From IMG/VR virus record IMGVR_UViG_3300030451_003482, positions 1 through 47,440 of that record: a stretch of 47,440 nucleotides of DNA, one strand, 5' to 3'. Both the position numbers and the translations under genes were made by a program. Source of the DNA: a virus. The notes under the pieces are model-generated. The model ran no database searches. It was given only the letters and a program-made list of their open reading frames with translations, and was not told where the DNA came from. Shown here in pieces: positions 12,656 to 38,276 of this stretch. Each line of letters opens with the position of its first letter. The stretch's first letter is position 1.

Positions 12656-15600
12656 ATGGCAGAAAGTAAAAACATTTTTATAAAATCTAAAATGAACAAA
12701 GATCTTGATGATCGTTTGTTACAACAAGGTGAATATAGAAATGCTGTTAATATACAGGTAAGTAAGTCAGAGTCAGAAGATGTTGGAGCTCTAGAAAATG
12801 TATTAGGCAATGTAGAAAAGTTTTTAACTGGAAACACAACAGAAAAAATTATAGGTTATTGTGTTTCAGAAGAAAGATCTAGTGTTTTCTTGTTTCTTAC
12901 AACTAACTCTTTAGCTAATAATCCAGCTGGTGAATATTCTGTTGCGTTATCAAACAATGCTACGCATAGAATTGTTGAAGCTGTTTGGAATGGTGATACT
13001 TTTTCATCTACAACTGACTTAATAGGTGGTACAACTGGCTCTGCTTCTAGTTTTATTAATTTCTGGGAAGGAGCTCCTATTATAGGTGTTAATCTTTTAG
13101 AGAATTTATTATTTTTTACTGATAATAGAAACCAGCCTAGAAAAATAAATGTAGATACTGCGATATCACAAGGCGTTGGTTATTATAACACTGAAGATAG
13201 TATTAGTGTTGCTAAATTCACACCATATACCGCACCTATATTATGGCAACAAACCGAAACTATAGACCCTAGCACTGGACAACCCTATCAAGGTTACGAA
13301 ACAACAATGAAAGATGTTGTTAGTCAGTATTTACCACAGTCATTACCTCAAGCACAACAAGATAATCCTTATTATAATCCAACATTTCAAGGTGATCCTG
13401 ACTATTTAGAAGATAAGTTTGTAAGATTTGGTTATAGATTTAAATATGATGATGGAGAGTATTCTGTGTTTTCACCTTTTACTCAAGAAGCTTTTATACC
13501 TCAACAAGATGGTTACTTTTTGTTTAATCCAAGTGGAACAGAAGATGACGACAATGACCAATCTGCAACATATAGAAGTACGGTTGTAGATTTTATGGAA
13601 AATAAAGTAAATGAAATTACTTTACGTATACCCATGCCATCTGTAGAAGATCCTTCTTTGCCTGCAACTACACTTGCTAACGTTACTAGTCAGTTTAAAA
13701 TAACTGAAATAGAAATATTATACAAAGAGTCTGACGAAATAAGAGTTTTAGTAGCAGATACATTAACAGCTAACGACATACAAGCTCAATATACTCCGTT
13801 TTTTATAAGTAATGTAGGGAGTGGTTATTCTATTAATTCAGATATAGCTACAACAACAAATGGTAGTGGAAACGGTCTTAAAGTAGATATTCAAGCTGTA
13901 AGTAACACAGGTGAAATAACTGCGCTTATAATATCAACTGATGGTAGTGGATATGCTGAAGGAGACGTTGTTACTATTACTGGTGGTGGAGGTAACGCTA
14001 CTTTAACTATAAAAGAATTAAACACGTTAGAATATGTTTATTCTGGAACTAAACCTTTCAAAACTTTACCTGAAGCTCAAACAGTAAGAGTATTTGATAA
14101 AGTGCCTGTTAAAGCTTTTGCTCAAGAAGTAGTTAGCAATAGAGTTGTTTACGGAAACTTTCAAACTCAACACACGCCGCCTTTAGATATAAATTACAAC
14201 ACAGGAGCAGCAGCAAAACGTGCTTTTAATAACACTGGATCTTCTCAAAATCCAACAAACCCTACGCTTTGGAGCACTAGTATAGTTGAATATCCAAGTT
14301 CTACGTTAAAACAAAACAGAAACTATCAAGCAGGCTTTGTATTTGCAGATAGGTTTGGTAGAGCTACATCTGTAATATTGTCTAACTCAGGTGACGCTAG
14401 TGGTGGCTCTGCATCTCAGTTTTCAACTGTATTTTCACCTTACAATGATAGTGGTGTAAATATTGGAGATTGGCCTGGAGATACTTTGTTGGTTCAATTA
14501 AACACAGAAATACCAACTTCACCTAACGCATCTAGTTTATATCCAGGTGTTTACAATGGAAATCCAAGCGATCCTAATTATAATCCATTAGGTTTTTTCT
14601 CATGGAAGATAGTTGTTAAACAACAAGAGCAAGATTATTACAATGTATATCTTCCAGGTATATTAAACTCTTATCCGCTTGATAATGAATTAGAAGTGGG
14701 TTTAACATCGCATATCGCGTTGTTAAATGACAATATAAATAAAATACCTAGAGATTTAACTGAAGTAGGTCCAGAGCAAAAACAATTTAGAAGTTCAGTA
14801 GAGCTTTTTGGTAGAGTACAAAATACAAATGTTGTAGCAAATGGTACTTCTGGAGTTTCATTATCTACTAACTTTGGCGCTTTAAACGAACAATATTTTC
14901 CATCTAGATTTGCTGATACTGTTTCAACTATCGCTTCAGAATTTGATTTATTTGATGTTGCACCTTTCCAAGGATCATCTAGTTTTCCAGCTAAATTAAC
15001 TTTTTCTTTTTACGAAGCTGAATCAAACCCTTTAATTGGTAGAATATCTACTACTAATCCTATAGGTCAAATTGAAGATTCAGGTAATACTAATCCAACT
15101 TATAGTATACAAAATTTAGCTGTATATGAAACAAAACCTACTGAATCAAGATTAGATATATATTGGGAGACAAGCACGTCTGGTAAAATAACAGATTTAA
15201 ATGAAGAAGTAGCACAGCAATCTGGAGCTACTATATTTGATATAGATGATTTTGATTTTTTGTTTAACGAAAGTTTTGGGGTTTGGCAAGGATCTCAACC
15301 TAGTAACTATAATCAACCAGCAGCTTTTACCGCTAATCCCGAGTTAGTTCAATCGTATGGTGAAGCTATTGTTACTGGTGATTTTTATTTTGTTACATCT
15401 GCAAATATTCCAATAACAAATATAAACATAACTAATTTTAGTGTAGTTGACGGAAACAACGTGGATGTGACTAATCAATTTATTTTGATGAAAATACAAG
15501 TTGGTCAAACTTATACTAAATTTGATGGAACAGTAGCAGGTCCATATACTGAAGATAGATTTATAGTTGTAAATAATACGTATAAAAACTATATAGCAAA

Positions 15601-17509
15601 CACACCTAACGACAGAATTTATACTTTTACAATAACCGCAGAAGACGTAACACCAAACACGCCAGCAGTAGGTATACTTAGAACATTTAATTTAAATCCA
15701 TCAACTGGTTTAGAAAATACACCAACAACAATTGAGACAGTTATACCTGCTCAAATAGTTGTATCTTATGGATATAGTGTTACTGCAAATGGTATGGCAG
15801 GTCAAACTCGTTTTACTGCTACTAATGGAGCTAATAACGATGGTAGTACAACAAATCCTCAATACGCTAATAGGCAAAACGGTATAACATGGAGTATAGT
15901 TAGCCAAACAGACGCTAGTGGTAATGCTGTTAACGCGTTTAAAGTAGATCCAGGTGCTGCGCCACCTACAAGTAATTCCGATGGTGTTATACTTGAAAAT
16001 ACTTACGGTCAAAATAGTGGTAGATTTATAGTAACGCTTAGAGCTACCGGCTCTGATGGCACTTTTTCACAAGCTACTTTTGATTTAATAATTGGTGAAG
16101 AAACAGCTGGTGGTAGTTTTGAAGATGGAACAACTTATTACGGTAATCTAGCAGGGTCTCCTAATAGTGTGCCTGGTGAGTATCGCGTTGGTTTTGGTTT
16201 TGCAGGTGCTTCAAATGGTCTTGGTTATATAGCAAGTTTTCATAATAATTCTGCAGACTTTGCAACCGATAGTAGTTTAGCTCAACAAAGCCAAGGAAAC
16301 AATGGAGGTTTAAAACCAAACTCAGGTACTGGAACTAGTGATGTTGGATGGGGTACTAGTGTCACTGGAGCTAACACAACTTGTTATAGTCCTACTTCTC
16401 AAGGTGGATCACCTACAAACCCACAAAACTTTACACAAAACTTTACTGTAAAAGGGCCAAGTGGAGGATACGGTTTACCACAAGGAACTGGTTATGTTAG
16501 AGTGGATATGGTATTCCCAGCGTTAGATCCATCTAACTTTCCAAGCGTGGCTCAGCAAATAGATCAGATATTTAGTGTTGAGTACAGAAATCCAAACGGA
16601 GCTGGATATCCTAACAACTGGGATAGAGCAAGAGACATAGAAGGTATAAATTTATCTTCTGAAACCTTTAATGGTGTAACGCTTGCTAACTTTTTATCTA
16701 ACGGAGACGGTGTTACTGCTTATCCTGCTAACTTTACTGCAAATCAAGGAGAAAGAATTAGATATGGGTGTTTAAGTAATGTAGGCTCAGGTATCGTTCC
16801 AAGCAACGCAGTTGGTGTTTATCTTCAAAACGGTAATAGCAATAGTAATAATAATGACGCATATTTTTCAAGATGGTTTGTAATAGGTAACAGTCCGTAT
16901 TATAATGCTGGTACTGGAGCTGGTGAATATCGTTTAGTAGCAGGTCTTTTATCCACTAGAGGTTCAGTAATGCCTGGAAACACGTATGGTGTAAGATGCT
17001 TTAACGCTCAAGGAACTTCTCTTGGTGTTAACATGCTAGTTACAATTTCAGCTGGAGATTTTTATTATGGCTTTGGAAATAATAGAGCTTTCGCGTATAA
17101 AGTTAATACAAATCAGTTCAGCACTAGAACTGCAGCTGAAAGTGTAAGTGTTAATTCAATAAACCAATTAGTATACGCAAGAGAACCATTACCTAGATAT
17201 GTTACTACATTTTATCAAGATATAAGTTTAACTACACCGTATAATTTTGGAACTACTTCAGGGCCAATATATTTAGCTTATAGACCAAGTGATACAGCTC
17301 CAAGTGGTTCTAGTTTTGTTGCAAACGCTACAGGAGGTTCCTCATCTACAAATTTACGTATGGCGCAAGCTGCAGAGTTTGCTGCAGGGGATAGTAACGT
17401 ATCTAAATCAACAACACAGGATAGAAGAATATGGACAGGTTATTTTCAATTAAACGGTACTAATGGTGCTGCAAAAGCAGCAGGGCAAAGCAGACCTAAA
17501 AAAGCATAA
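12656..17509 (+). CDS. Large tail nozzle/stabilisation protein (putative)
   Basis: A 1617-residue tail protein. The N-terminus MAESKNIFIKSKMNKDLDDR, then LLQQGEYRNAVNIQVSKSE, and the repeat-like LLFFTDNRNQPRKINVD match proteins I know as tail stabilisation or nozzle proteins in crAss-like and related podoviruses. From about residue 930 onward the protein turns into Asn/Gly/Ser/Thr-rich beta sequence with Ig/cadherin-like stretches (SGRFIVTLRATGSDGTFSQA), suitable for host binding. It is much longer than T7 gp12 (about 790 aa), so a receptor-binding part may be fused on. No separate tail-fibre gene is seen in the window. Confidence 0.6.
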   Translation: MAESKNIFIKSKMNKDLDDRLLQQGEYRNAVNIQVSKSESEDVGALENVLGNVEKFLTGNTTEKIIGYCVSEERSSVFLFLTTNSLANNPAGEYSVALSNNATHRIVEAVWNGDTFSSTTDLIGGTTGSASSFINFWEGAPIIGVNLLENLLFFTDNRNQPRKINVDTAISQGVGYYNTEDSISVAKFTPYTAPILWQQTETIDPSTGQPYQGYETTMKDVVSQYLPQSLPQAQQDNPYYNPTFQGDPDYLEDKFVRFGYRFKYDDGEYSVFSPFTQEAFIPQQDGYFLFNPSGTEDDDNDQSATYRSTVVDFMENKVNEITLRIPMPSVEDPSLPATTLANVTSQFKITEIEILYKESDEIRVLVADTLTANDIQAQYTPFFISNVGSGYSINSDIATTTNGSGNGLKVDIQAVSNTGEITALIISTDGSGYAEGDVVTITGGGGNATLTIKELNTLEYVYSGTKPFKTLPEAQTVRVFDKVPVKAFAQEVVSNRVVYGNFQTQHTPPLDINYNTGAAAKRAFNNTGSSQNPTNPTLWSTSIVEYPSSTLKQNRNYQAGFVFADRFGRATSVILSNSGDASGGSASQFSTVFSPYNDSGVNIGDWPGDTLLVQLNTEIPTSPNASSLYPGVYNGNPSDPNYNPLGFFSWKIVVKQQEQDYYNVYLPGILNSYPLDNELEVGLTSHIALLNDNINKIPRDLTEVGPEQKQFRSSVELFGRVQNTNVVANGTSGVSLSTNFGALNEQYFPSRFADTVSTIASEFDLFDVAPFQGSSSFPAKLTFSFYEAESNPLIGRISTTNPIGQIEDSGNTNPTYSIQNLAVYETKPTESRLDIYWETSTSGKITDLNEEVAQQSGATIFDIDDFDFLFNESFGVWQGSQPSNYNQPAAFTANPELVQSYGEAIVTGDFYFVTSANIPITNINITNFSVVDGNNVDVTNQFILMKIQVGQTYTKFDGTVAGPYTEDRFIVVNNTYKNYIANTPNDRIYTFTITAEDVTPNTPAVGILRTFNLNPSTGLENTPTTIETVIPAQIVVSYGYSVTANGMAGQTRFTATNGANNDGSTTNPQYANRQNGITWSIVSQTDASGNAVNAFKVDPGAAPPTSNSDGVILENTYGQNSGRFIVTLRATGSDGTFSQATFDLIIGEETAGGSFEDGTTYYGNLAGSPNSVPGEYRVGFGFAGASNGLGYIASFHNNSADFATDSSLAQQSQGNNGGLKPNSGTGTSDVGWGTSVTGANTTCYSPTSQGGSPTNPQNFTQNFTVKGPSGGYGLPQGTGYVRVDMVFPALDPSNFPSVAQQIDQIFSVEYRNPNGAGYPNNWDRARDIEGINLSSETFNGVTLANFLSNGDGVTAYPANFTANQGERIRYGCLSNVGSGIVPSNAVGVYLQNGNSNSNNNDAYFSRWFVIGNSPYYNAGTGAGEYRLVAGLLSTRGSVMPGNTYGVRCFNAQGTSLGVNMLVTISAGDFYYGFGNNRAFAYKVNTNQFSTRTAAESVSVNSINQLVYAREPLPRYVTTFYQDISLTTPYNFGTTSGPIYLAYRPSDTAPSGSSFVANATGGSSSTNLRMAQAAEFAAGDSNVSKSTTQDRRIWTGYFQLNGTNGAAKAAGQSRPKKA

Positions 17510-17529: not shown

Positions 17530-19098
17530 ATGGCACTTATAGAAGTTAAATATTTTAATTCGTTTTTATTAAGAAAAACAGTTAATGGTATAGGCCAACC
17601 AATTGAACCTGGAACTCCTATATGGGCCGGATCAAGAGGTATACCTCAAGCAATAGGTGGATATCCTCAAGGATCACCTATTACTACAGATGCTAACTGG
17701 GCAGTGGAAGAGTCTAGAATACGAGGTGGTTATAATAACACTCAAGTTAGTTTAGGTCCAAAAGCCTATGTTGTTGAAGATGAACCACGAGGATCTGTTA
17801 GAGGTAATGCTATGATATATTCTGGTATATACAACTCTAGAACTGGTATAAACAACACTAATCAATTTAGCGTTGGTGAAGAAATAATAAAAGCTACAGA
17901 CCCTATATTTGGTAGTATACAAAAACTTTACTCAGAAGATACAAATCTAGTTATATTTTCAGAACGTAAAGTAAGTAGAGCATTAATTGATAAAGATGCT
18001 ATATATACAGCTGAAGGCGGAGGTGTACCTGTTAGTCAACTTAATTTAGTTATAGGACAAATAAACGCATACGCTGGTGAGTATGGTATAGCTACAAACC
18101 CAGAAAGCTTTGCAGTATATGGTTATAGAAAATACTTTGTAGATAGAAACAGAAATGCTGTATTAAGATTATCTAGAGATGGTATAACAGAAATATCTAA
18201 CTATGGTATGATTGATTTCTTTAGAGATCGATTAAGTGAAAATACTTCAGCGCAATATGCAACTCAAGGTAAAATTATAGGAGGTTGGGATATATACACT
18301 AAACAATATGTAGTTTCTTTGCAACCACCAGAAGCCTCTGAGGCAGGTGATTATACTTTGTCTTTTGATGAAAGTGTATTAGGTTGGCCTTCTTTTTATT
18401 CTTTTAAACCTACTATAATGTTTAGTTTAGGTAATAGGTTTTTTACAGGAGTAAATGGATCAGTTAACACTGTTAATACGAGCGTTTGGCAACATAATGC
18501 TGATGATTCTAGTACGCCAAGAGCTAATTTTTACGGTGTAAATTACAAATCAAATATAACTTTTATTGTAAATCCACAACCAAGCGTATCTAAAGTATTT
18601 AAAACTGTAAACTACGAAGGTAGTAATGGTTGGAAAATAACACAATTTGTATCAGATACAACAGGATCAGACAGTGTTGATGTAGGACCTCAACCTAACT
18701 ATACTCCTATATGGATAACACCTCAGCATAGAGATGTAGGTACAGGTATTAATAATGAAATATATAGTTATTATGAAGGTGAATATGTAATTAACCCAGC
18801 AAATAATCAACCTGTTTACAGATCAGACGCTTCACCTAACGATTATTTAACTGTATTTGGTACTGAAGATCCACCGTTTAATAAATTTTATGCAGGTTTT
18901 ACTAGAAAAGAAAATAAATACTATGCTAACTTAGTTAATAATAGTACAGCTCAAGGAAACGAAGTTTCTTTTGGTCAAAATATAACTGGAATAAAAGCAC
19001 GTTATTGTACGGTAACAATTGAAAATGATGATTACACTAACCCTGGAGGCATGAAAGAATTATTTGCAGTTAGCACAGGGTTTACTATGGATAATTAA
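17530..19098 (+). CDS. Tail protein (putative)
   Basis: A 522-residue beta-rich protein. It contains DEPRGSVRGNAMIYSGIYNS, LVIGQINAYAGEYGIATNPE and YFVDRNRNAVLRLSRDGITE, the last resembling beta-propeller blades. It follows the 1617-residue tail protein in the tail block. Propeller-like repeats and position suggest it is part of the tail hub or nozzle. It starts MALIEVKYFNSFLLRKTV after an A/T-rich spacer. Function is inferred from context only; another tail-associated or virion surface protein would fit equally. Confidence 0.6.
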   Translation: MALIEVKYFNSFLLRKTVNGIGQPIEPGTPIWAGSRGIPQAIGGYPQGSPITTDANWAVEESRIRGGYNNTQVSLGPKAYVVEDEPRGSVRGNAMIYSGIYNSRTGINNTNQFSVGEEIIKATDPIFGSIQKLYSEDTNLVIFSERKVSRALIDKDAIYTAEGGGVPVSQLNLVIGQINAYAGEYGIATNPESFAVYGYRKYFVDRNRNAVLRLSRDGITEISNYGMIDFFRDRLSENTSAQYATQGKIIGGWDIYTKQYVVSLQPPEASEAGDYTLSFDESVLGWPSFYSFKPTIMFSLGNRFFTGVNGSVNTVNTSVWQHNADDSSTPRANFYGVNYKSNITFIVNPQPSVSKVFKTVNYEGSNGWKITQFVSDTTGSDSVDVGPQPNYTPIWITPQHRDVGTGINNEIYSYYEGEYVINPANNQPVYRSDASPNDYLTVFGTEDPPFNKFYAGFTRKENKYYANLVNNSTAQGNEVSFGQNITGIKARYCTVTIENDDYTNPGGMKELFAVSTGFTMDN

Positions 19099-22127: not shown

Positions 22128-25100
22128 ATGTTTGAATATCAAGGATATCAATATACTTTAGAAGAACTCCAAGCTGCTGCTGATGCCGCTGGTATTTCTT
22201 TAGAAGAATACATTGCTAAACACGGAATTAAAAAGGTGGGAAAGCAAACGGGTGTTGCGGAAAAGGGTGCAACTGTAACACCGATAACCGGGACTGTACC
22301 CGAGACTCAAATTGTAGAAACTCCTATAGTAGAGAGTGGGGTATTAGAGTCGGTGGAGTCTTCATTGGCATCACTATCAACAGATAAATTTAAAGGCCCT
22401 TCAATATCAGCTCCACAATACCAAGAAGTAGAGCAAGGGTTAGAAAATCAATCTGCTCAACAATTAAATCAAAGTTTAAATACAAATCAAAATCTAGAAG
22501 ATGACTATGCTGGTTTAAATCCGCTGGATGGTATTAAAGCTTTAGCTAAACTACTAGGTAAAGCTGGAGACTATATGTTTGGAGAACCTGAAACAGTAGA
22601 AGACGTCGGATTTGTAGAAAGTATGTATGGCATTTTAGTTAATGGTCTTAATACAATAGGTGGTGTAGATACAAGAGCGGAATTTACTTTAGCTTCTTTA
22701 GCGCAAGAAATACCTGACGAACTATTTACTACTGCATTAGGCGAGAAATTAGGTAAAAAAGCTATTGAAGAAAACAACAAGTTTTTTAATAAAACAAATC
22801 AAGAGATGGATGCTTTAGCAGAAGTCAACATGCAGACTCTTGGTTTTAAAGACATAGGTAAAAAAGCTGGAGGCATATATGTTTATTCACCGTTTACAGG
22901 CTTAATGAACACTGAAGATGTAAAAACTGGTATAGCTGCAACTGTAAATGGTATATCTCAGTTTTTAACATCAGCGGCTATAAGCTATGGAACTGGTGGT
23001 GTAGGACTTGCGTCAGATATGGTTGCTTACTCTATAAAAGATTACAATGACAGTAAAGCTGAAGAGTTAGGTATAACAACAGAAGAACTTTTTAATACTG
23101 GTCAAGGTGAGGTTGTGATACCTGCTTCGTTAGGAACTGTAGGTTATTTACTCGAAAGAGCTGGTATAAAAGGTTGGCAAAAAGCTTTAAAGAATATGAC
23201 GCCTGGGGCTAAAAAAGCTTTGTTTACTTTCTTAAACACAGGTACTAAAGAAGGTGGAACTGAGTGGGTGCAAGGCGGTATAGAAGAACTCAACAGAGGT
23301 TTAGGTGCTGGTAGAAGTTATCTTGAAGCAGAAGAGTCTGCTTTAAATTACTTATTTTCTGAAGACGGCGTTGAAAACTTTTTACAAGGATTTGTAGGTG
23401 GCACAGGTAGTGTAGCGATAACTAGAGCATCTAGACAATTAAGAAGTGGTAAAGATCATGAAGCTGTTCGTGACATAATATTAGAACTTAATGACTTAGA
23501 AAATAGTAAGTTTAGAAAAAATTTAACAGTAGAAGAAATAGCTGATATTAATACAGCTCAAGAAGAACTTAGGTTTAATCTAAGAAACATTATTGATAAA
23601 AGTAATACATTAGCTGGTACGTTATCTGATAGTCAAATAGAAAGTTTAAATGCTAACTCTGATTTTCTAACTACATCGGCAGATAGAATAAATGAAATAA
23701 AATCATCTGACAAGTTTACAGACAAAGAAAAAGAAATACTAATACAAACTATAAACAAACGTAGAGAGGTTGCAAGTCAAAACATATTTGATATAAGAAA
23801 CGAAGCTGAACAGTTTTACGATAACTTGTTTAATGTTAGAGAAGCAGCTAAAGAAGATGATAACATAAGAGTATTAGATTTTAAAAATGCTGCTGAAATA
23901 CAAGCGTATTTAAATGATAACCCTAATCTTGTAGCTGAAGGTGGTAGAGTGGCAGCGTCTGGTGAACAAGGATTTTTTATACCTGGGCAAGGTGATGGGC
24001 CATCTACAATTATAATTAACAGAGAAAAATCGTTAAACGAAAAAGCTGTTAATGTTGCTAGCCACGAGTTTCTTCATTATGTTTTAAATCAAACAATGAA
24101 GAAAAATCCTATGGCTGCTATAAATTTAGGTAACGCATTGCTTAGAGAGTTAGATAAGATCGATGTAAACAAAATAAAAGATAGCAACTTTAAAAAACGA
24201 ATGGAGCTCTACAAAGATGATAAAGTAGAAATCCAGATGGAAGAAGCTTTAACTTTATTTTCAGATGCTTTAGCTACCGGTGATATACAGCTTAATGCAG
24301 ATATCTCTACACTGCTTGGTGATAAGTTACGTAGAACTTTTGGTAGGTTAGGTGTTAATGTAAAATTTAACGAAGGTAGTGATGTAGTTAATTTTATAAA
24401 AGATTACAACAATAGTTTAAGTAAAGGTAAACTAACTAAAAGTCAACAAGCTGTACTACAAGAAGGAGCTGAAGGTGAGTTAATACCACAAGCAGAGCAG
24501 CAAGCTGACGAACAGCAAGTTAAAGCCTCAAAAGGTATTTACCAAGAAGTTGAAACGTTTAAAGATGATTTAGTAAACGAGCAAAGTAAAGATGCTACAG
24601 CTTTTTTAATTGCTGACAAGTTACAAAACGAAGTAGATCGTAGATTAAAGTTAAATCTTGATGAAATACAGAAAGAAGATATAATTAGAAACTTTTTGTT
24701 TGATGACAAAAGAGGATTAGTTGGTTTGTTAAAAGATTATGATCCAGCTAAAAATAAAAGTGTAATGGGTTATTTAAACTCAACTACACCTGGAGGTAAA
24801 CTACTTGATGTTAGATTACAAGAGTTTTATAAAAACGATCCTAGATACAACCAAATAATTCAATCAACTACCGATGAAGCTGTTCAACGTAAAGCTGAAA
24901 GAGTAACTTCAGAAGATATTACAGAGACAACTACTGAGGATGTTACAGATAAACCTTTAGCTAAAAAACCTACTGAAACTGTAGTATATAGTGACGAAGT
25001 TTTAAGCAATGTAGGCGCTGCTAACACTGAAGCTTTAGAAAATAGAATTACAGAAGAAATACAAACTGCATTTAAAGGTAAAGATATATCTAGATTTAAA

Positions 25101-28100
25101 GAGCTAAAAGATATACCTAAAAACATAACACAGTTATACGCTGATATGTTTGGGCTTTCAACTGTAGACGGTATAGTTGATTTTAAAAGAAACTTTCCTA
25201 AGCTAGATGAAGGTGCTGTTAGAAACATACGTACGTTTTTAAACAGAAATGCTGAAGATGATTTTCGTAGATTACCAAAAACAAAAGATGACCAAAAAAG
25301 AGCAACTGGTATAAAGCAGACTAAGCTTGGTAAAGTTATGTACGATGCTAACGATAATCTTGTTGGCACGCTTAAACAGTACAAAGATATTCTTCAAGGT
25401 AAAAATATAACTCTTCCAGCTTACGATGGTGAAATGATTGAGTTTAATAGGATCGTAGACGGTAAAAAACTACCAATATATAGAGACTCACAGCACTACA
25501 AAGCAGCATTAAAGTTTCACATACAAAACCGTATAGCTGAAGATGTTATGCCCGATAAAGCTCAGCGATTAAGTGCTGGACTTAAATTTAGTAAAGCTGA
25601 ACCTAAAGTAGAAGATTCTTTTGAAAGATATATATCTAGTATAACTAAAGGAGAAAAAGAATTAAGCGCAGAGCAGATAGAGCAAGAAATAAGTTATATA
25701 AAAAATCTAGCTCAAGAGCAGGGTGTTGAAGATGAAGATATTATAAGACAGTTATTTACTAATGATAAAAATTATAAACAGCTTAGGTCCACTGTAGGTG
25801 TTCCTGCTGGGGGTAAAAATAAAATATCTTCTGTAGAGAACGCTGTTAATTTAAGACAAACTCAAAAAGATTTTGTCAAAAAAATGATACCAGAAGGTAA
25901 AACTTTTGATCAACTACCTAAACAATATCAGCAGTTTATAATAGACACCGTAGGTTTTGGCGATACGCGTATGACACTAGCAGGCGTTCCTTTAACTTAC
26001 AAAGCATATAATACAGATAAGAATTATTCTTCTTTGTTAACAGCTGCTTTTGGTGAAGACGTATTAACAGGTACTGGTAAAAATATAAGTAACTTAGAAA
26101 ATGTTTTTGCTCCAAGAAATTGGGGTCAAAAGGGATTTAGAGGTAAAGTAGAACAAATAGTAAAACAAGAAGGTATTACGCCTGAACAAGCTAAAGTAGA
26201 AGTTGAAAAACTATTAGTAAAAGAAGGTAATGATATAGATGAAACGTTAGCTGCTAACATACAAGTTGTCAATAATGCTTATGATGCTTTAGCAGATATG
26301 GTTATTGAAAGTCCTAATTCAAAAACTTTAGAATCTATAGTTGATTTGTTAGAGTCACAAGTTAATAGAGCTACTGGTGTTTTTAAAGGTTTAATACCAG
26401 TTACTAGTTTTAGTATGAAACCTGAAAGAGGTACTACTAAAAACCAAAACAAAGAAATGCACAATGAGCATTTAGTTGAACTATTTAACGCTAACAAAAA
26501 CTTTATAAACCTATTAAATCAGTATATAAAAGGTAGCGTAAATCAAGAACAGCTAAAACAAAAGATTAAAGAAAATACTAATAGTCTTGAGCAAGCTGTT
26601 ATACCAGAAAGATTACGTGTAGAGAAAGACGCGTCAGGTAGTGCTATTAGAGATTTTGCAGATCCTTTAACGTTTTTAGGTAAAGATGCTGATGATCAAG
26701 TTATAATAGGTACACGTAAACTAGTAACAGGTGAAACGTTTACTGGATTAAATATGGCTGAGTTTATAGCTAAAAATTTAACTTTAAGCCAAATGCAACA
26801 ACTTGCTAGATTTAATCGTAATGAATTAAACTCTGAAGGTGTAATTGTAAAACAAATAATAGACAATAAGAAAAACTATATTAAAACATCTAAGTCTAAT
26901 AACTCTAAACTACCAGATGGTTTTGATTTAAATAATCCTAAGTCTTGGGATAGATTTGATATGTTAGATGTTGTAGTTAGGCAAAAGTTTCCAAAGACTA
27001 AAAACTATTTATACCCATATGAGCAGCTTACTATTGAAGAGAAAATAGAAGTTGTAAAAGATATTCCAGGTTTACAAACAACAGCTGGTTTAAAGTTTAG
27101 TAAATCACCTACAAACCAAGATATCATTAACGTAATGAAAGCGGCTGATATAGCCGTAGAAAAAGCTAGAGACGCTAACGCTCCTAATAAAGGTATAAGT
27201 GTTTGGGACTTTGACGATACACTTGCTACTACAAAATCTAATGTATTGTACACTATGCCTGATGGTAGCACTGGCACTTTAAACGCTGAAGAGTTTGCAG
27301 CTCAAGGTGAAGAGCTTGGTAAGCTTGGAGCTGAGTTTGATTTTAGTGAATTTGAAAAAGTTACTAAAGGAGCTAAAGGTCCTATGTTTGAAAAGGCAAT
27401 AGCTCGTAATAAAAAGTTTGGTAATGAAAACGTTTTTATTCTTACGGCTAGAACACAGTCAGCTGCTAAACCAATACACGAATTTTTAAAATCTATAGGT
27501 TTAGATATACCACTTAAAAATATTGTAGGTTTAGGAAACAGTTCTCCACAAGCAAAAGCTAGATGGATTGTTAGTAAAGCTGGCGAAGGTTATAATGATT
27601 TTTATTTTGCAGATGATGCTTACAAAAATGTTAAAGCTGTACAAGATGCTCTTAGCATATTAGATGTTAAATCAAAAGTAAGACAAGCTTACATTAAACA
27701 TAGCAAGTCAGAAGCGTTAGATAAAGGATTTAACGATATACTAGAACAAACAACTGGCATTGCATCGGAAAAAGAATACAAGAAAGTTAAAGCAGAAGTA
27801 GCTGGTGCATCACTTGGTAGAGTGTTTAGAGGTATACCGTACTCAGCTCAAGACTTTGTAGGTTTGCTATATGAAACATTAAGTAAAGGTAAACTTGGCG
27901 ACTCACAAATGGCTTGGTACAACGAGCATCTAATTAAACCATATGCTAGAGCTGTTAACGATATTGACAACGCTAGACTTAGTGTTATGCAGGACTACAG
28001 AGCTCTTAAAAAACAATTAGGTTTTGTACCAAAAAAATTAAGAGCAAAGCTACCAGGTGAACCATTTACAAGAGAGCAAGCTGTTAGAGTTTATATATGG

Positions 28101-29720
28101 AACACACAAGGTTATGATATACCTGGTATTAGCAAACAAGATTTAAAAGATCTTGTTGAGTATGTGCAAAGTGATAGTGAATTAGAGGCTTTCGCGAAGC
28201 AAGTTATCGCTATACAAAAAGGTGAATATGCTAAACCAAAAGAAGGTTGGCCAGCTGGTACTATAACAACTGACATACAAGAAAGTATAAATAAAGGTGT
28301 TAGAGCTAAGTATCTGACTCAATGGCAAAACAATGTTGATGTTATATTCTCTGAAAAGAATATGAACAAGCTTGAGGCTGCGTATGGTAAAAAGTACCGT
28401 AAAGCTATGGAAAATATGCTAGATCGAATGAAGACTGGCCGCAACAGAAGGTTTTCAGATGACAGCTTGACTGGTAGATTTACAGATTGGCTGCAAGGCA
28501 GTGTCGGAGCTATTATGTTCTTTAACTCTAGATCTGCGTTGCTACAAAATTTATCATCTATAAACTTTTTAAACTTTACAGATAACAATCCATTAGCTGC
28601 AGCAAAAGCTTTTGCAAATCAAAAACAATACTGGTCAGACTTTAGTAAACTTATTAACTCTGATTTTTTGAAAGCTAGAAGATCTGGCCTACGTATGAAT
28701 GTAAACGAAGCAGATATTGCTGATATGGCTAAAAAAGGTGGACCAAGAGCTGTTATAAGTAAACTATTACAATTTGGTTTTACACCTACACAAGTAGCAG
28801 ATAGTTTCGCTATTGCATCTGGTGGAGCTACGTTCTATAGAAACAGGATAAAATCTCTAATGAAACAAGGAATGTCTCAAGCTGAAGCTGAGACTCAAGC
28901 ATTTGAGGATTTTAGAGAAACAGCTGAAGAGTCGCAGCAGTCCGCTAGACCAGATCGTATATCAATGCAGCAAGCTGGTCCACTTGGTAGATTAATATTA
29001 GCTTTCCAAAACACACCATCGCAGTATGCTAGAATAATAGATAAATCAATACGTGATTTAAAAAATAGAAGAGGCGATGCTAAAACAAATATAAGTAAAA
29101 TAATTTATTATTCTACTGTACAAAACTTAATGTTTAACGCGTTACAACAAGCTTTATTTGCTTTTGCTTTTGACGACGAAGAGCCAGAAGAGGAAGAGAA
29201 AAAAGAAAAGTACGCAAACATACTTAACAGCATGGCTGACTCTTTGTTAAGAGGTACAGGTGTAGCAGGTGGTGTGCTATCAGTAACTAAAAATGCTATA
29301 ATACGTATAATAAGAGAGTCGCAAAAAGATAATCCTAATTACGAAAAAGTAGGTGCTGACTTACAAAGAATAGCTCCACCTATATCTTCTAAGTTATCTA
29401 AAATAAATCAAGCTGCAAGATCGTTTAAGTGGGACAAAGAGCAAATGATAAATGGTGGTTGGGGATTAGATAACCCAGCTTATTTAGCTGTAGGTAATGT
29501 AGTGTCAGCAACAACTAACTTGCCTATGGATAGAGCTGTAAAGAAAATAAATAACCTTATGAAAGCTTCTGATAGTGAGCTTGAATTATGGGAAAGATTA
29601 GCATTATTAGGAGGTTGGCAAGACTGGGAAATAGGATTAGATGAAGACCCTAAACCTAAAAAGAAAAAATCTAAGGGTAGAAAAGAAAAACGTATAGTAG
29701 AAAAACGTATAAGAGAATGA
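22128..29720 (+). CDS. Giant internal virion/polyvalent protein with zincin and HAD domains
   Basis: A 2530-residue protein in the gp16 position. The N-terminal motif MFEYQGYQYTLEELQAAADA, then AGISLEEYIAKHG, is a small helical module. A zinc-metallopeptidase motif HEFLH lies at 646-650. A HAD-superfamily domain spans about 1690-1840: motif I D1694-F-D-D-T1698, motif II T1773, motif IV D1829/D1830. The sequence AGLKFSK occurs twice (1150-1156, 1653-1659), the second about 35 residues before the HAD domain. The C-terminus is helical and ends in a Lys/Arg-rich tail. It is probably packaged and ejected with DNA, in the style of polyvalent proteins. No transglycosylase motif like that of T7 gp16 was recognised. 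Confidence 0.7.
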   Translation: MFEYQGYQYTLEELQAAADAAGISLEEYIAKHGIKKVGKQTGVAEKGATVTPITGTVPETQIVETPIVESGVLESVESSLASLSTDKFKGPSISAPQYQEVEQGLENQSAQQLNQSLNTNQNLEDDYAGLNPLDGIKALAKLLGKAGDYMFGEPETVEDVGFVESMYGILVNGLNTIGGVDTRAEFTLASLAQEIPDELFTTALGEKLGKKAIEENNKFFNKTNQEMDALAEVNMQTLGFKDIGKKAGGIYVYSPFTGLMNTEDVKTGIAATVNGISQFLTSAAISYGTGGVGLASDMVAYSIKDYNDSKAEELGITTEELFNTGQGEVVIPASLGTVGYLLERAGIKGWQKALKNMTPGAKKALFTFLNTGTKEGGTEWVQGGIEELNRGLGAGRSYLEAEESALNYLFSEDGVENFLQGFVGGTGSVAITRASRQLRSGKDHEAVRDIILELNDLENSKFRKNLTVEEIADINTAQEELRFNLRNIIDKSNTLAGTLSDSQIESLNANSDFLTTSADRINEIKSSDKFTDKEKEILIQTINKRREVASQNIFDIRNEAEQFYDNLFNVREAAKEDDNIRVLDFKNAAEIQAYLNDNPNLVAEGGRVAASGEQGFFIPGQGDGPSTIIINREKSLNEKAVNVASHEFLHYVLNQTMKKNPMAAINLGNALLRELDKIDVNKIKDSNFKKRMELYKDDKVEIQMEEALTLFSDALATGDIQLNADISTLLGDKLRRTFGRLGVNVKFNEGSDVVNFIKDYNNSLSKGKLTKSQQAVLQEGAEGELIPQAEQQADEQQVKASKGIYQEVETFKDDLVNEQSKDATAFLIADKLQNEVDRRLKLNLDEIQKEDIIRNFLFDDKRGLVGLLKDYDPAKNKSVMGYLNSTTPGGKLLDVRLQEFYKNDPRYNQIIQSTTDEAVQRKAERVTSEDITETTTEDVTDKPLAKKPTETVVYSDEVLSNVGAANTEALENRITEEIQTAFKGKDISRFKELKDIPKNITQLYADMFGLSTVDGIVDFKRNFPKLDEGAVRNIRTFLNRNAEDDFRRLPKTKDDQKRATGIKQTKLGKVMYDANDNLVGTLKQYKDILQGKNITLPAYDGEMIEFNRIVDGKKLPIYRDSQHYKAALKFHIQNRIAEDVMPDKAQRLSAGLKFSKAEPKVEDSFERYISSITKGEKELSAEQIEQEISYIKNLAQEQGVEDEDIIRQLFTNDKNYKQLRSTVGVPAGGKNKISSVENAVNLRQTQKDFVKKMIPEGKTFDQLPKQYQQFIIDTVGFGDTRMTLAGVPLTYKAYNTDKNYSSLLTAAFGEDVLTGTGKNISNLENVFAPRNWGQKGFRGKVEQIVKQEGITPEQAKVEVEKLLVKEGNDIDETLAANIQVVNNAYDALADMVIESPNSKTLESIVDLLESQVNRATGVFKGLIPVTSFSMKPERGTTKNQNKEMHNEHLVELFNANKNFINLLNQYIKGSVNQEQLKQKIKENTNSLEQAVIPERLRVEKDASGSAIRDFADPLTFLGKDADDQVIIGTRKLVTGETFTGLNMAEFIAKNLTLSQMQQLARFNRNELNSEGVIVKQIIDNKKNYIKTSKSNNSKLPDGFDLNNPKSWDRFDMLDVVVRQKFPKTKNYLYPYEQLTIEEKIEVVKDIPGLQTTAGLKFSKSPTNQDIINVMKAADIAVEKARDANAPNKGISVWDFDDTLATTKSNVLYTMPDGSTGTLNAEEFAAQGEELGKLGAEFDFSEFEKVTKGAKGPMFEKAIARNKKFGNENVFILTARTQSAAKPIHEFLKSIGLDIPLKNIVGLGNSSPQAKARWIVSKAGEGYNDFYFADDAYKNVKAVQDALSILDVKSKVRQAYIKHSKSEALDKGFNDILEQTTGIASEKEYKKVKAEVAGASLGRVFRGIPYSAQDFVGLLYETLSKGKLGDSQMAWYNEHLIKPYARAVNDIDNARLSVMQDYRALKKQLGFVPKKLRAKLPGEPFTREQAVRVYIWNTQGYDIPGISKQDLKDLVEYVQSDSELEAFAKQVIAIQKGEYAKPKEGWPAGTITTDIQESINKGVRAKYLTQWQNNVDVIFSEKNMNKLEAAYGKKYRKAMENMLDRMKTGRNRRFSDDSLTGRFTDWLQGSVGAIMFFNSRSALLQNLSSINFLNFTDNNPLAAAKAFANQKQYWSDFSKLINSDFLKARRSGLRMNVNEADIADMAKKGGPRAVISKLLQFGFTPTQVADSFAIASGGATFYRNRIKSLMKQGMSQAEAETQAFEDFRETAEESQQSARPDRISMQQAGPLGRLILAFQNTPSQYARIIDKSIRDLKNRRGDAKTNISKIIYYSTVQNLMFNALQQALFAFAFDDEEPEEEEKKEKYANILNSMADSLLRGTGVAGGVLSVTKNAIIRIIRESQKDNPNYEKVGADLQRIAPPISSKLSKINQAARSFKWDKEQMINGGWGLDNPAYLAVGNVVSATTNLPMDRAVKKINNLMKASDSELELWERLALLGGWQDWEIGLDEDPKPKKKKSKGRKEKRIVEKRIRE

Positions 29721-31179: not shown

Positions 31180-31463
31180 TGGCTACACAGATAGGAGAAA
31201 ACACTAAGGTAACTCTTGATTTGAAGACTATAGGTATGATAATAGGTTTTGTATTAACGCTAGCTGGTATGTGGTTTACATTACAAGCTGATATAGCTTT
31301 AGCTATGGAACAACCAGAACCTGTGATATCTCGTACTGAGTATGATTTAAAAGACGAATTAGTTCGTCAAACAATAATGGACACGCAGGAAGACGTTGAT
31401 CAAATACTAGAAGATTTAAAAAAGATTGACGAACGTTTATATGAAATAAGAAAAAATCAATGA
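31179..31463 (+). CDS. Small membrane protein with coiled-coil tail (lysis candidate)
   Basis: A 94-residue protein with one hydrophobic segment (about residues 17-38, TIGMIIGFVLTLAGMWFTLQ) and a long charged coiled coil (about 55-94) ending in DLKKIDERLYEIRKNQ. One N-terminal membrane anchor with a coiled-coil tail fits an i-spanin or a small holin-like protein. It overlaps the exported beta protein upstream (TAATG) and the secreted thioredoxin-like gene downstream (ATGA), forming an envelope-directed trio. Confidence 0.65.
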   Translation: MATQIGENTKVTLDLKTIGMIIGFVLTLAGMWFTLQADIALAMEQPEPVISRTEYDLKDELVRQTIMDTQEDVDQILEDLKKIDERLYEIRKNQ

Positions 31464-31870
31464 GAACTTTAATACTACTGCTTATAAGCGCTTTAGCACA
31501 TGCGCAATCAGATGTGCCAGAAAAATATTGGATCGATGATAGTAATTTTGAAGATACAATAAGTAATGATAATGCTTTTGGTGATGACAATAACGAAACT
31601 ATTGTTGTTGAGTTTTGGGCAAAGTTTAATGAAGCTAACTGTTTTAATGAGTGGAAACAAATAAAAGATGCGTCATATTATAGAGTTGATATATCAAAAG
31701 CGCCGCAAGCTAAAAAGAAATATAAGATTAGAATGGTACCTGCTGTTCTTGTTTTTAAGTCTGGTAGTATGGAAAAAATATTTAAAGCCGGTCTTGACCT
31801 TACACTTCCTGTTGGGTTGGCTGAAATACAAGAAACAATAAATGAAATTAACTTAGCATCAAATTTTTAA
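31460..31870 (+). CDS. Secreted thioredoxin-fold protein without CxxC
   Basis: A 136-residue protein. A short signal peptide (MRTLILLLISALAHAQ, residues 1-16) is followed by a thioredoxin-like domain: VVEFWAKFNEANCF stands where thioredoxin has the WCxxC loop, and IRMVPAVLVFKSGSMEKIFK carries the cis-proline (MVPAV) and following strands. Only one cysteine remains in the active-site loop, so classical disulfide exchange is unlikely. It could bind a periplasmic partner or act on redox-linked folding. It overlaps the upstream membrane protein by four bases. No lipobox is present, so it is not an o-spanin lipoprotein. Confidence 0.7.
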   Translation: MRTLILLLISALAHAQSDVPEKYWIDDSNFEDTISNDNAFGDDNNETIVVEFWAKFNEANCFNEWKQIKDASYYRVDISKAPQAKKKYKIRMVPAVLVFKSGSMEKIFKAGLDLTLPVGLAEIQETINEINLASNF

Positions 31871-34413: not shown

Positions 34414-34439
34414 GGGGAGCGTAATGCTCCCCTTTTTTT
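34414..34439 (+). terminator. Rho-independent terminator of the + arm
   Basis: The perfect 7-bp stem GGGGAGC/GCTCCCC (34414-34420 and 34426-34432) with loop GTAAT is followed by TTTTTTT (34433-34439). It lies 50 bases after the M15 peptidase and abuts the nrdA stop, which is encoded on the other strand. Confidence 0.9.
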
Positions 34440-36204
34440 ATCCGTCACATGCAGCGCAGTCTGGGTCCATAGCGCTTGCAGCTATATCACCTCGCAACAC
34501 CGACTCGGTACGCATATAATATAATGTTTTAATACCCTTTTTCCAAGCTTCCATGTGTACTTGATTAATCCATTTAGGCGTAGCTTCAGAAGGAAAAGCT
34601 AAGTTTAAACTTACAGCTTGATCAATATATTGCTGACGTATGCCAGCTTGATTAACAAGCTCTAATTGATTTATTTCTTTAAACGTTTTGAATACATCCT
34701 TGACTTTATCAAAGCCTGTTAGATCTAACGTATCGTGCTCAGAAAGACGTACCAGCTTACTATTTACATAACCAAAATCATCTAGCTCTTTAATATCTTG
34801 TACGCTGCCTCCGTCTTCTAGTATTTTATCCCACGTTTCTTTAGTATTTATACCTGCTTTACGTAGTACTTTTTCTAACTCTTTGTTCTTCCTAATGAAC
34901 GTACCCTTCGCGCTTTGTTCAGTGAAAACATTAGCGGCCCAAGGCTCAATGCCAGGACTAACATTACCGGCAAGCTTACTATTAGACACAGTAGGAGCGA
35001 CAGCCCTAAGATGAGTGTTACGAAAGCCAGTGCCACGACACCAAAGAGGTTCACCGTAAACCTCAGCAAGCGCTCTTGACGCTCGTTCACTCTCAATTTT
35101 AATCTGTGAAAATATACGTCGTGTTTGGAACTGTGCTTGTAACCCTTCAAAGGGTATACCGTTTTGTTGAAGATACGTATGCCAGCCCAAGACTCCCAAG
35201 CCAAGTGCACGGCCTTTTTCTGCAGATCGTACAGAGTTACCGAAACCTTTGAGACCTTTAGCTTTTTGAATAAACTCTTCAAGTACTCCGTCAAGAAACC
35301 ATATAGCATCATGTATAAGGTTTGTATTTTTCCATTCTTCATATTTAGTAATATTTAAGCTACTCAAACAACAAACAAAACTATGTGACTCATCTGTGTG
35401 TAACACTATTTCACTGCAGATGTTTGTCATGTGTACTTTTAAAGCGTTGTCTTTGTATGCGTCTGGATTTGCTTTATTAGTATTTCCTTTAAATAAGATA
35501 TACGGCTCTCCAGTGCTTTTTCGTTTTCTAATAAGCTTACTCCATCGAGATCTAGCGTCTTTATCTCCTTGCTCAAGCTTTCGCATAAACTTATCACCAA
35601 CAACTGCGCACTGATGTAAGTTAAGCGATTGTCTGTTAACGTCTCCTTTAGGTTCTCGTATTTCAAGCCACTCTTCAAAATCGTTGTGTTCAATGTTGAT
35701 ATTGACGCTTGCAGCTCCGCGTCTAACCGATCCTTGATTTGTTGCAAGAATTGTTGAATCATAGATCTTGCAGAATGGGACGACTCCGTCTGATGTTCCA
35801 TTACCTGTTATTGTTGCGCCGGCGGGTCTAATCATGTTAATACCAATGCCAACTCCGCCGCCGTGCTTTGCGAGTAACATCATCTCTAAGTTCTTAGTAC
35901 CAATATCGTGTATGCTATCACCAACATCAATACCAAAACAACTGATAGGTAAACCACGATCTGTACCTGTGTTAGATAACACTGGCGATGCTAAACATAA
36001 CCAACCTTTCCATATATAATCAAAGAAAGTATCTGTCAACTCTGGTTTATACAAACGTTTAGCGATTGTACTAGCTACACGCATATAAGCATCACGTGGT
36101 GATTCCCATGGTAATAAGTAACCTCCTGCTATAGTTTTTTTGTAAACATCAGTGTCACCCCAAGCAGGATAGTCGACACCTTTTTTCCAATCGTTATTCC
36201 ACAT
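34438..36204 (-). CDS. nrdA: Ribonucleoside-diphosphate reductase, alpha subunit (class I)
   Basis: 588 residues, shorter than cellular NrdA (about 760) because the N-terminal ATP cone is absent. Catalytic features: C89 in LPISCF, N261/C263/E265 in NICSEI, C278-C279 in VCCLSS, the paired tyrosines in TLYYMRT near the C-terminus, and the tail CAACDG (CxxC, 583-586) that receives electrons. It reduces NDPs to dNDPs for phage replication together with the NrdB at 37317. With no ATP cone it probably escapes dATP activity inhibition. The start ATG overlaps the zinc-finger ORF upstream by 11 bases. Bases 34921-35220 are GC-richer than the rest. Confidence 0.93.
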   Translation of the reverse strand: MWNNDWKKGVDYPAWGDTDVYKKTIAGGYLLPWESPRDAYMRVASTIAKRLYKPELTDTFFDYIWKGWLCLASPVLSNTGTDRGLPISCFGIDVGDSIHDIGTKNLEMMLLAKHGGGVGIGINMIRPAGATITGNGTSDGVVPFCKIYDSTILATNQGSVRRGAASVNINIEHNDFEEWLEIREPKGDVNRQSLNLHQCAVVGDKFMRKLEQGDKDARSRWSKLIRKRKSTGEPYILFKGNTNKANPDAYKDNALKVHMTNICSEIVLHTDESHSFVCCLSSLNITKYEEWKNTNLIHDAIWFLDGVLEEFIQKAKGLKGFGNSVRSAEKGRALGLGVLGWHTYLQQNGIPFEGLQAQFQTRRIFSQIKIESERASRALAEVYGEPLWCRGTGFRNTHLRAVAPTVSNSKLAGNVSPGIEPWAANVFTEQSAKGTFIRKNKELEKVLRKAGINTKETWDKILEDGGSVQDIKELDDFGYVNSKLVRLSEHDTLDLTGFDKVKDVFKTFKEINQLELVNQAGIRQQYIDQAVSLNLAFPSEATPKWINQVHMEAWKKGIKTLYYMRTESVLRGDIAASAMDPDCAACDG

Positions 36205-37316: not shown

Positions 37317-38276
37317 TTACCAAATGTCTTCGAAGTCTTCGCCTTCGTTGGCCTTTGAGTAATCAGTTGGCCTAATAGCAAAAAAATCTGTATGAGTATG
37401 ACCACCGGTAAGATGATAAAACCAATCAAGGTTATCAGCTGCTTTAGTGTCGACTTCGAAGAAGGCGAGGTACCCAAGTTCTTGTAGTTTTTCATTTGCT
37501 CTTTTTCTAATAAATTGTTTAAGGTCATATGCTTTTAAGTTTTCAATATCACCCATTTCAAACATCTTGTCGATATACTTTTCTTCTAAGTCTACCATTG
37601 TTTTAGCAGCTTCAACTATATCTTCTTGACATTTATCTAATAAACCAGGTGTTTCTTTGCACATATCGCGAAACAGTTTACAACCCATTTTACTGTGCAA
37701 TGATTCATCACGAACACTCCATTTCATTTGTTGGCCTATACCTTTTAGTAAGTTTCTTAACTGAAAGCTATAGAGTACAGCAAATGCAGAGTATAAGCTA
37801 ACCCCTTCAGCAAAAGCACTAAAGACAGCAAGAGAGCGGCCAATCCCGACAGGATCGGTACCGCTATAACTAACCAGATTGTCAAACCTTCCAGCAGTTG
37901 CCGGCTCGTGTAAAAAAGCTTCATAATCTTCAAGACCTAATGTTTCGTTTAAATAACTATAAGCTACAGCGTGTATTGTCTCTTGTGAGCCAAACATCAT
38001 AGCCATCTGTTGTATCTCATGCTTAGGAAACCATGATACTACTTTTTGAGTCCAGTAATCAGATACTGCACACTCAGTCTGAGCAAAACCTAATAGTATG
38101 TTACCTACTAAGTTTTTTTCTTCAGGTGTTAATTTTTCTTTCCAGTCTTTAACATCACCTTGCATAGGTATTTCAGTATGTAACCAAAATGCTTGTGCTT
38201 GCTTTAACCAACCCTCTGTATAATAATCAGGATATTCAAACGGCTTGTACGCTATGCGCTCATCAAACAACCCCAT
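37317..38276 (-). CDS. nrdB: Ribonucleoside-diphosphate reductase, beta subunit (class I)
   Basis: 319 residues with the ferritin-like diiron site. E99 and H102 in QETIHAVAY, with Y106 four residues after the histidine in the place of the radical tyrosine; E157 in FAEGVSLY; E191 and H194 in VRDESLH; the first carboxylate is D41 or D44 in QGDVKDW. The C-terminal EGEDFEDIW is the tail that docks on NrdA. It makes the tyrosyl radical needed for ribonucleotide reduction. The start ATG overlaps the stop of the 53-residue protein upstream (TAATG). nrdB comes before nrdA, separated by five genes or fewer. Confidence 0.93.
   Translation of the reverse strand: MGLFDERIAYKPFEYPDYYTEGWLKQAQAFWLHTEIPMQGDVKDWKEKLTPEEKNLVGNILLGFAQTECAVSDYWTQKVVSWFPKHEIQQMAMMFGSQETIHAVAYSYLNETLGLEDYEAFLHEPATAGRFDNLVSYSGTDPVGIGRSLAVFSAFAEGVSLYSAFAVLYSFQLRNLLKGIGQQMKWSVRDESLHSKMGCKLFRDMCKETPGLLDKCQEDIVEAAKTMVDLEEKYIDKMFEMGDIENLKAYDLKQFIRKRANEKLQELGYLAFFEVDTKAADNLDWFYHLTGGHTHTDFFAIRPTDYSKANEGEDFEDIW

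Follow-up and report, generated by a model that had tools for sequence, protein, structure and literature searches.

A giant phage protein with zincin-like and HAD-fold domains and a repeated peptide at its module borders

The window, meaning the whole 47,440-nucleotide stretch of DNA analysed here, belongs to a 47.7-kb IMG/VR virus record and encodes a giant protein in which a zincin-like domain and a HAD-fold domain are accompanied by a repeated peptide. The role of this peptide as a mark of module borders is well supported by comparison with relatives. The wider reading, in which the protein is polyvalent-type cargo of exchangeable modules, cut at the border peptides likely by its own zincin and thereby freeing a HAD phosphatase, is given about even chances. 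In the proposed mechanism, the chain would comprise a variable N-terminus, a zincin, at least one cassette, usually a HAD module and a constant C-terminal module, and would be packaged in the particle and injected with the DNA, as suggested by synteny. The linker peptide, of the form [hydrophobic][K/Q][F/Y]S[K/R], would serve as a recognition site at which the chain is cut before or after entry to release the modules. The zincin on the same chain would be the leading candidate for the cutter, and the freed HAD module may have phosphatase activity, with nucleotides or the ends of nucleic acids as possible targets.

The giant protein and its two predicted enzymatic domains

The original prediction placed HEFLH, a full HAD motif set and two copies of AGLKFSK in one open reading frame, which was confirmed from the translation (Table 1). 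The HAD motifs are DFDDT (residues 1694–1698), LTAR (1772–1775), AKARW (1809–1813) and FADD (1827–1830), with D1694, D1696, T1698, T1773, K1810, D1829 and D1830 as catalytic residues. AGLKFSK is the sole 7-mer repeated in the protein. Its second copy lies 35 residues before the first HAD aspartate, bearing out the predicted position directly ahead of the HAD domain, and its first copy lies about 500 residues past HEFLH and does not adjoin the zincin motif. Among 1000 shuffles of the window protein, HExxH arose in 5 and a repeated 7-mer in 22, so the AGLKFSK pair taken by itself carries little weight and had to be assessed with relatives. Whole-protein scans against Pfam and PHROG returned no confident domain, the HAD module surfacing only as PHROG 415; a PDB sequence search gave nothing useful, and tblastn of the whole protein against GenBank phages gave no match.

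Table 1. Features of the giant protein, with positions in the window
Feature	Position	Strand	Basis
Giant, probable virion-cargo (polyvalent-type) protein, 2530 aa	22128..29720	+	open frame, no internal stops; slot synteny
Likely zincin-like metallopeptidase domain, residues ~560–720	23805..24287	+	AlphaFold2 model, fold match
HEFLH catalytic motif, residues 646–650	24063..24077	+	sequence; HExxH conserved in relatives
Candidate third zinc ligand Glu706	24243..24245	+	invariant column, helix position
Border motif copy 1, AGLKFSK, residues 1150–1156	25575..25595	+	homology ends 1155–1158; pLDDT dip
Exchangeable middle cassette, mostly helical	25596..27083	+	few relatives cover it
Border motif copy 2, AGLKFSK, residues 1653–1659	27084..27104	+	homology starts 1649–1659; low pLDDT
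HAD-fold domain, residues ~1685–1850	27180..27677	+	invariant columns, AlphaFold2, fold matches
Degenerate third border site IKHSKS, residues 1856–1861	27693..27710	+	motif position in relatives
Constant C-terminal module, residues ~1862–2507	27711..29648	+	common to most relatives

The zincin-like region is likely a protease. Its AlphaFold2 model has pLDDT mostly of 80–95 with one dip, and HEFLH sits on a predicted helix. The column of Glu706 (E147 of alignment A2) is invariant in 30 sequences and falls in a helix that follows the HExxH helix in the model. The match of the model to lethal-factor-type zincins (Z 7.7, rmsd 4.5, 176 residues) is modest, and a common arrangement could give such a Z; it fits the relationship that PMC5512222 describes for the zincin of N4. 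HExxH was found in 56 of 60 5'-complete HAD-bearing giants and in 13 of 13 held-out giants.

Motifs I (DxDx[T/V]), II (T/S), III (K) and IV (DD) of the HAD domain are invariant in alignments A1 and A4 (62–63 sequences), an invariance that comes from loci picked by the HAD region itself. The AlphaFold2 model of the domain has pLDDT of about 77–94, and its listed fold matches are HAD-fold proteins (Z ~8–10, rmsd 2.6–5, 96–154 residues), including the Nir2 LNS2 domain and class B and C acid phosphatases; a Foldseek search of the PDB with the zincin and HAD models returned no match at E≤0.001. The polynucleotide kinase profile PHROG 415 matches the HAD region in 59 of 62 members (window E 9.4e-7, best 3.9e-9). 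Based on sequence and model, the module most resembles phosphatases and is likely one. Considering the PHROG 415 match and the class B and C acid phosphatases among the fold matches, the module could plausibly act on nucleotides or the ends of nucleic acids. The likeness to the T4-type polynucleotide kinase 3'-phosphatase of PHROG 415 is confined to the HAD region, and, unlike those enzymes, the window HAD is a module of a giant virion-type protein. Loss of HEFLH or DxDxT from most relatives, which the original prediction had named as a sign against it, was not observed, since the HExxH and HAD residues are conserved in the sampled giants.

Phage clade, gene slot and relatives

Scanning IMG/VR with the HAD region retrieved 558 relatives, 80 loci of which were fetched, compared with one weak match among 50,697 GenBank phage records; much of the biology of the HAD module thus appears to be missing from cultured phages. 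The corresponding open reading frames are giants, mostly of 2300–3350 aa when complete. All 38 of the records tested carry a portal 57–70% identical to the window portal, so the HAD-bearing relatives form one phage clade. Relatives among genome contigs fall in MAGs whose phyla conflict (Bacteroidetes, Aliivibrio, Woesearchaeota, Ilumatobacteraceae and Clostridiales), and this conflict means that they say little about the host. In the neighbour-sampled set, the HAD motif was present in 28 giants and absent from 14. These 14 include giants truncated where their contig stops, and L225, whose alignment extends through the HAD region; the HAD module is lacking in at least seven distinct giants (L184, L185, L187, L188, L196, L202 and L239).

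The window portal shows 40–49% identity to its counterparts in Flavobacterium elemo phages, Maribacter phage Panino and a Manatee Spring phage, and portal matches were found in 87 GenBank records, Cellulophaga and Tenacibaculum phages included. Elemovirus, Pervagoviridae and Pachyviridae are related to the clade of the window phage, which consists of uncultured marine podoviruses. The elemo phages and phi38:1, and partly phi18:3, have a common gene order, with terminase and portal first, then the capsid and tail genes, and last a giant protein; Gundel, with its portal located elsewhere, departs from it. In this slot, gp123 of Cellulophaga phage phi18:3 was detected as a virion structural protein by MS/MS, gp101 of phi38:1 carries a structural annotation by similarity, and elemo gp18 is annotated as a structural protein. 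Four genes upstream of the window giant lies a crAss muzzle domain protein (Pfam crAss_MUZ_C). Because the same-slot proteins of related phages are virion structural proteins, virion cargo is the natural reading, and the giant is probably delivered with the DNA, judging by its position and its synteny with MS-detected virion proteins. The label 'ejection protein' in the original prediction is not readable from the window sequence and is supported here by synteny.

Several other features of the gene neighbourhood were observed. Two neighbours on the + strand, at 12656–17509 and 17530–19098, match different parts of phrog_14478 (1474 positions), so that what is one protein in elemo and phi38:1 phages seems to be divided between two genes in the window; the second half (17530–19098) carries the crAss muzzle C-terminal domain. 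A GroES-like co-chaperonin lies beside the terminase (1488–2093, +), as in elemo and phi38:1 phages. The window also encodes the large and small subunits of ribonucleotide reductase and a thioredoxin-like protein (34438–36204, −; 37317–38276, −; 31460–31870, +). In one relative's record (G028, the record of L077, 52066–54472), the portal match is broken into two parts, and an in-frame TGA lies in one of them.

Module borders and the border peptide

Homology of the window protein to many relatives extends up to residues ~1155–1186 and resumes at ~1465–1690, mostly at 1649–1659. The middle cassette (residues 1201–1500) is covered by 1–2 of 62 relatives, compared with about 60 for the C-terminal module, and a separate IMG/VR scan with the cassette found no relative. 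Giants without the HAD module regain homology to the window protein at 1855–1892, near the third border site, and at a constant distance past the HAD start 28 relatives have [KQRN][FY]S[KR]. The proposal that AGLKFSK marks domain borders therefore held up: homology breakpoints coincide with it, the middle segment is swapped and HAD-less relatives rejoin at the third site. By this alignment evidence, the middle segment and the HAD module are exchangeable cassettes lying between border marks. Over all pairs, 13.5% of alignment ends fell within 10 aa of a motif, against 1.6% under random shift (maximum 3.6% in 300 trials), a figure inflated because the conserved motif itself attracts local alignment ends. 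The C-terminal module is common to 55–61 of 62 relatives along its length with a mean column identity of 48%, and gave no clear match to Pfam or PHROG.

In the AlphaFold2 model with the HAD domain, pLDDT falls below 50 at model residues 52–60 and 548–556 and dips near 751–760, and the stretch at 548–556 reaches into border copy 2. Copy 1 falls in the drop of confidence that ends the zincin-block model, in part possibly an end effect. Alignments and models together show the border motifs in predicted flexible linkers where homology between giants starts or stops. As a separate observation, the contig of the closest partial relative (L001, 10001–13351) stops right after AGAKFSK, a possible assembly break at a border.

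The motif search in relatives that the original prediction had proposed showed that AGLKFSK is one case of a wider motif, [AVLMI][K/Q/R/N][F/Y]SK, which is enriched in the giants. [AVLMI][KRQN][FY]SK was counted 73 times in 162 kaa of giants, compared with a single occurrence in the 183 kaa of other open reading frames of the same loci, a density about 90-fold above that of the neighbouring frames, and [AVLMI][KRQ]FSK occurs 66 times in giants versus 2.7 in shuffles. The pattern had been picked after the first sequences were viewed; a held-out set was therefore drawn by a neighbouring gene and contained 13 occurrences in 37.9 kaa of giants; shuffling gave 1.2, and the 52 kaa of other frames had none. 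Among 80 giants, at least one copy was present in 50, at least two in 22 and at least three in 10, where shuffling predicts 7.3, 0.46 and 0.04, respectively, but these counts are not independent and are inflated by shared descent, as relatives inherit sites. The five-residue form [AVLMI][KRQN][FY]S[KR] has no copy in 21 of 63 HAD-bearing giants, and sites decay among close relatives, with IKFSR (L014), IKFAR (L013) and VEKAR (window) at the same place; not every border therefore requires the motif. The open-licence literature searched yielded no report of it.

The residue preceding FS agrees within a protein in 70 of 84 pairs (83%), compared with 36% when the residues are dealt out anew, and shared descent accounts for part of this agreement. 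On the tree of the C-terminal module, QFSK characterises one clade (L029, L032, L034, L036–L038, L040, L044, L054 and L066) and appears again in L194, L212, L217 and L234, near L256 with its three KFSK copies. The tree thus places two separate switches from K to Q, each hitting several copies at once; several sites switching jointly, and twice, is the result expected of a shared recognising partner. A group of mixed flavour (L049, L056 and L071, with K, Q and R) counts against a strict flavour rule.

Proteolytic processing is the leading mechanism for the border peptide, the cut itself being a putative step. Joint switching would also be expected if the peptide were instead a docking motif with one shared binding partner, attaching to the portal, tail or scaffold and ordering the modules for packing and tail threading with no cut. 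The motif lies in linkers that are flexible in the model, several copies occur per chain, and crassvirus cargo passes through the tail in a partly unfolded state, attached to portal and tail (PMC10172136). However, similar peptides are also present in other phages, in polyvalent proteins that are unrelated and would have a different partner, and those proteins often have a zincin motif; docking is considered rather unlikely. Cutting by a protease other than the zincin, either a phage head protease or a host protease, would retain the processing role. P1 DarA is processed during head maturation, the record of P1 annotates its pro gene as probably activating a host protease, and motif-bearing giants without HExxH exist (L024, L025, L074 and L031). 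On the other hand, no protease was recognised among the structural genes searched, though several genes carry no assignment, and the motif is near-absent from the remaining phage proteins, unlike the usual head-protease pattern, which leaves this alternative unlikely.

The coincidence of the motif with homology breakpoints would also fit a DNA-level seam at which cassettes are joined by recombination, the peptide having no role in the protein. The two window copies encode the same peptide with DNA that differs at 4 of 21 bases, all synonymous, and the 74 motif copies use both AGN and TCN serine codons and vary at synonymous sites. This codon variation, within the gene and across relatives, indicates that selection acts on the peptide and not on the DNA, and a recombination seam is disfavoured as very improbable. 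As for mere coincidence of the two AGLKFSK copies, a repeated 7-mer did appear in 2.2% of window-protein shuffles, but the enrichment across relatives, the held-out replication and the border positions refute it in practice and leave it almost no probability.

Polyvalent proteins and other cargo proteins

Beyond the window clade, giants occupy the same slot after the tail genes in related phages (Elemovirus gp18, phi38:1 gp101 and phi18:3 gp123) and are annotated as virion proteins, but they show little sequence similarity to the window protein. The same-slot giants of cultured and Manatee Spring relatives that were examined had no HAD motif and no AGLKFSK-type repeat. Zincin motifs were observed in three same-slot giants (L005, L009 and L010): HEIFH at 1543 in elemo, HEFGH at 1337 in Gundel, and HEFGH at 1615 and 2500 in the Manatee Spring phage.

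The N4 vRNAP (Schitoviridae), an ejected protein, shares with the window protein its giant size, a HExxH zincin-type domain (PMC12633501) and, on the cargo reading, ejection; it differs in being an RNA polymerase, none being recognised in the window protein. Its sequence contains HELVH and a single GKFSR, with no other border-type repeat. The N4 vRNAP is packaged unprocessed (PMC5512222), and this lack of cutting despite HELVH and GKFSR counts against zincin cutting at such peptides. In P1, [KRQ][FY]S is absent from DarA and occurs once each in DarB and DdrB (RFS at 756 of DdrB), too few to inform.

Peptides resembling the border motif, such as DDVRYSVARID, NIKFSKAKSQQ and NDIRFSKA, were also observed in unrelated giants with an ART-PolyVal domain (L266, L268–L343). 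In a 4730-aa Bacillota protein (L266, G622:C17), DDVRYSVARID flanks the ART-PolyVal domain on both sides, and HEMFH is also present. In the 60 aa ahead of the ART-PolyVal domain, [KRQ][FY]S[VILKR] is present in 9 of 58 phage proteins, against 1.0 expected, and the nine peptides cluster 20–38 residues ahead of the domain. [AVLMI][KR][FY]S[KR] occurs 24 times in 49 ART-PolyVal giants versus 3.3 in shuffles. NDIRFSK- and DDIRYSL-type peptides recur past the domain, where they could be part of the domain's own end. Border peptides of this kind may thus be widespread among polyvalent proteins, with lower enrichment than in the window clade. A peptide of roughly [hydrophobic][K/R/Q][F/Y]S[K/R or V/I/L] could even constitute a general processing code of phage polyvalent proteins, in which their own zincins or a shared protease would cut at the site, release the modules and coevolve with it; this extension is tentative and, on balance, doubtful.

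Among the domains of polyvalent proteins, zincin-like peptidases are the most frequent, and Iyer et al. 2017 (PMC5512222) proposed a processing role for them on other grounds. Neither a HAD phosphatase nor a cleavage or linker motif came up when that paper was searched by term, and crAss and Cellulophaga phages were likewise absent. Although zincin processing has been proposed since 2017, the literature searched names no cut site, and the border motif provides a concrete, testable one. In addition, the motif would allow giant phage cargo proteins to be parsed into modules from sequence alone. The polyvalent proteins (PMC5512222) are giant, carry several unrelated enzymatic domains with a zincin partner and are predicted to be delivered together with DNA, and the window protein is alike in its make-up: it joins a zincin and a HAD domain with conserved catalytic motifs in one chain, and its relatives shuffle domains by swapping the middle cassette and the HAD module. 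It differs from them in the repeated KFSK-type peptide that borders its modules. The window protein belongs with the polyvalent proteins, and the repeated border peptide is a new element among them.
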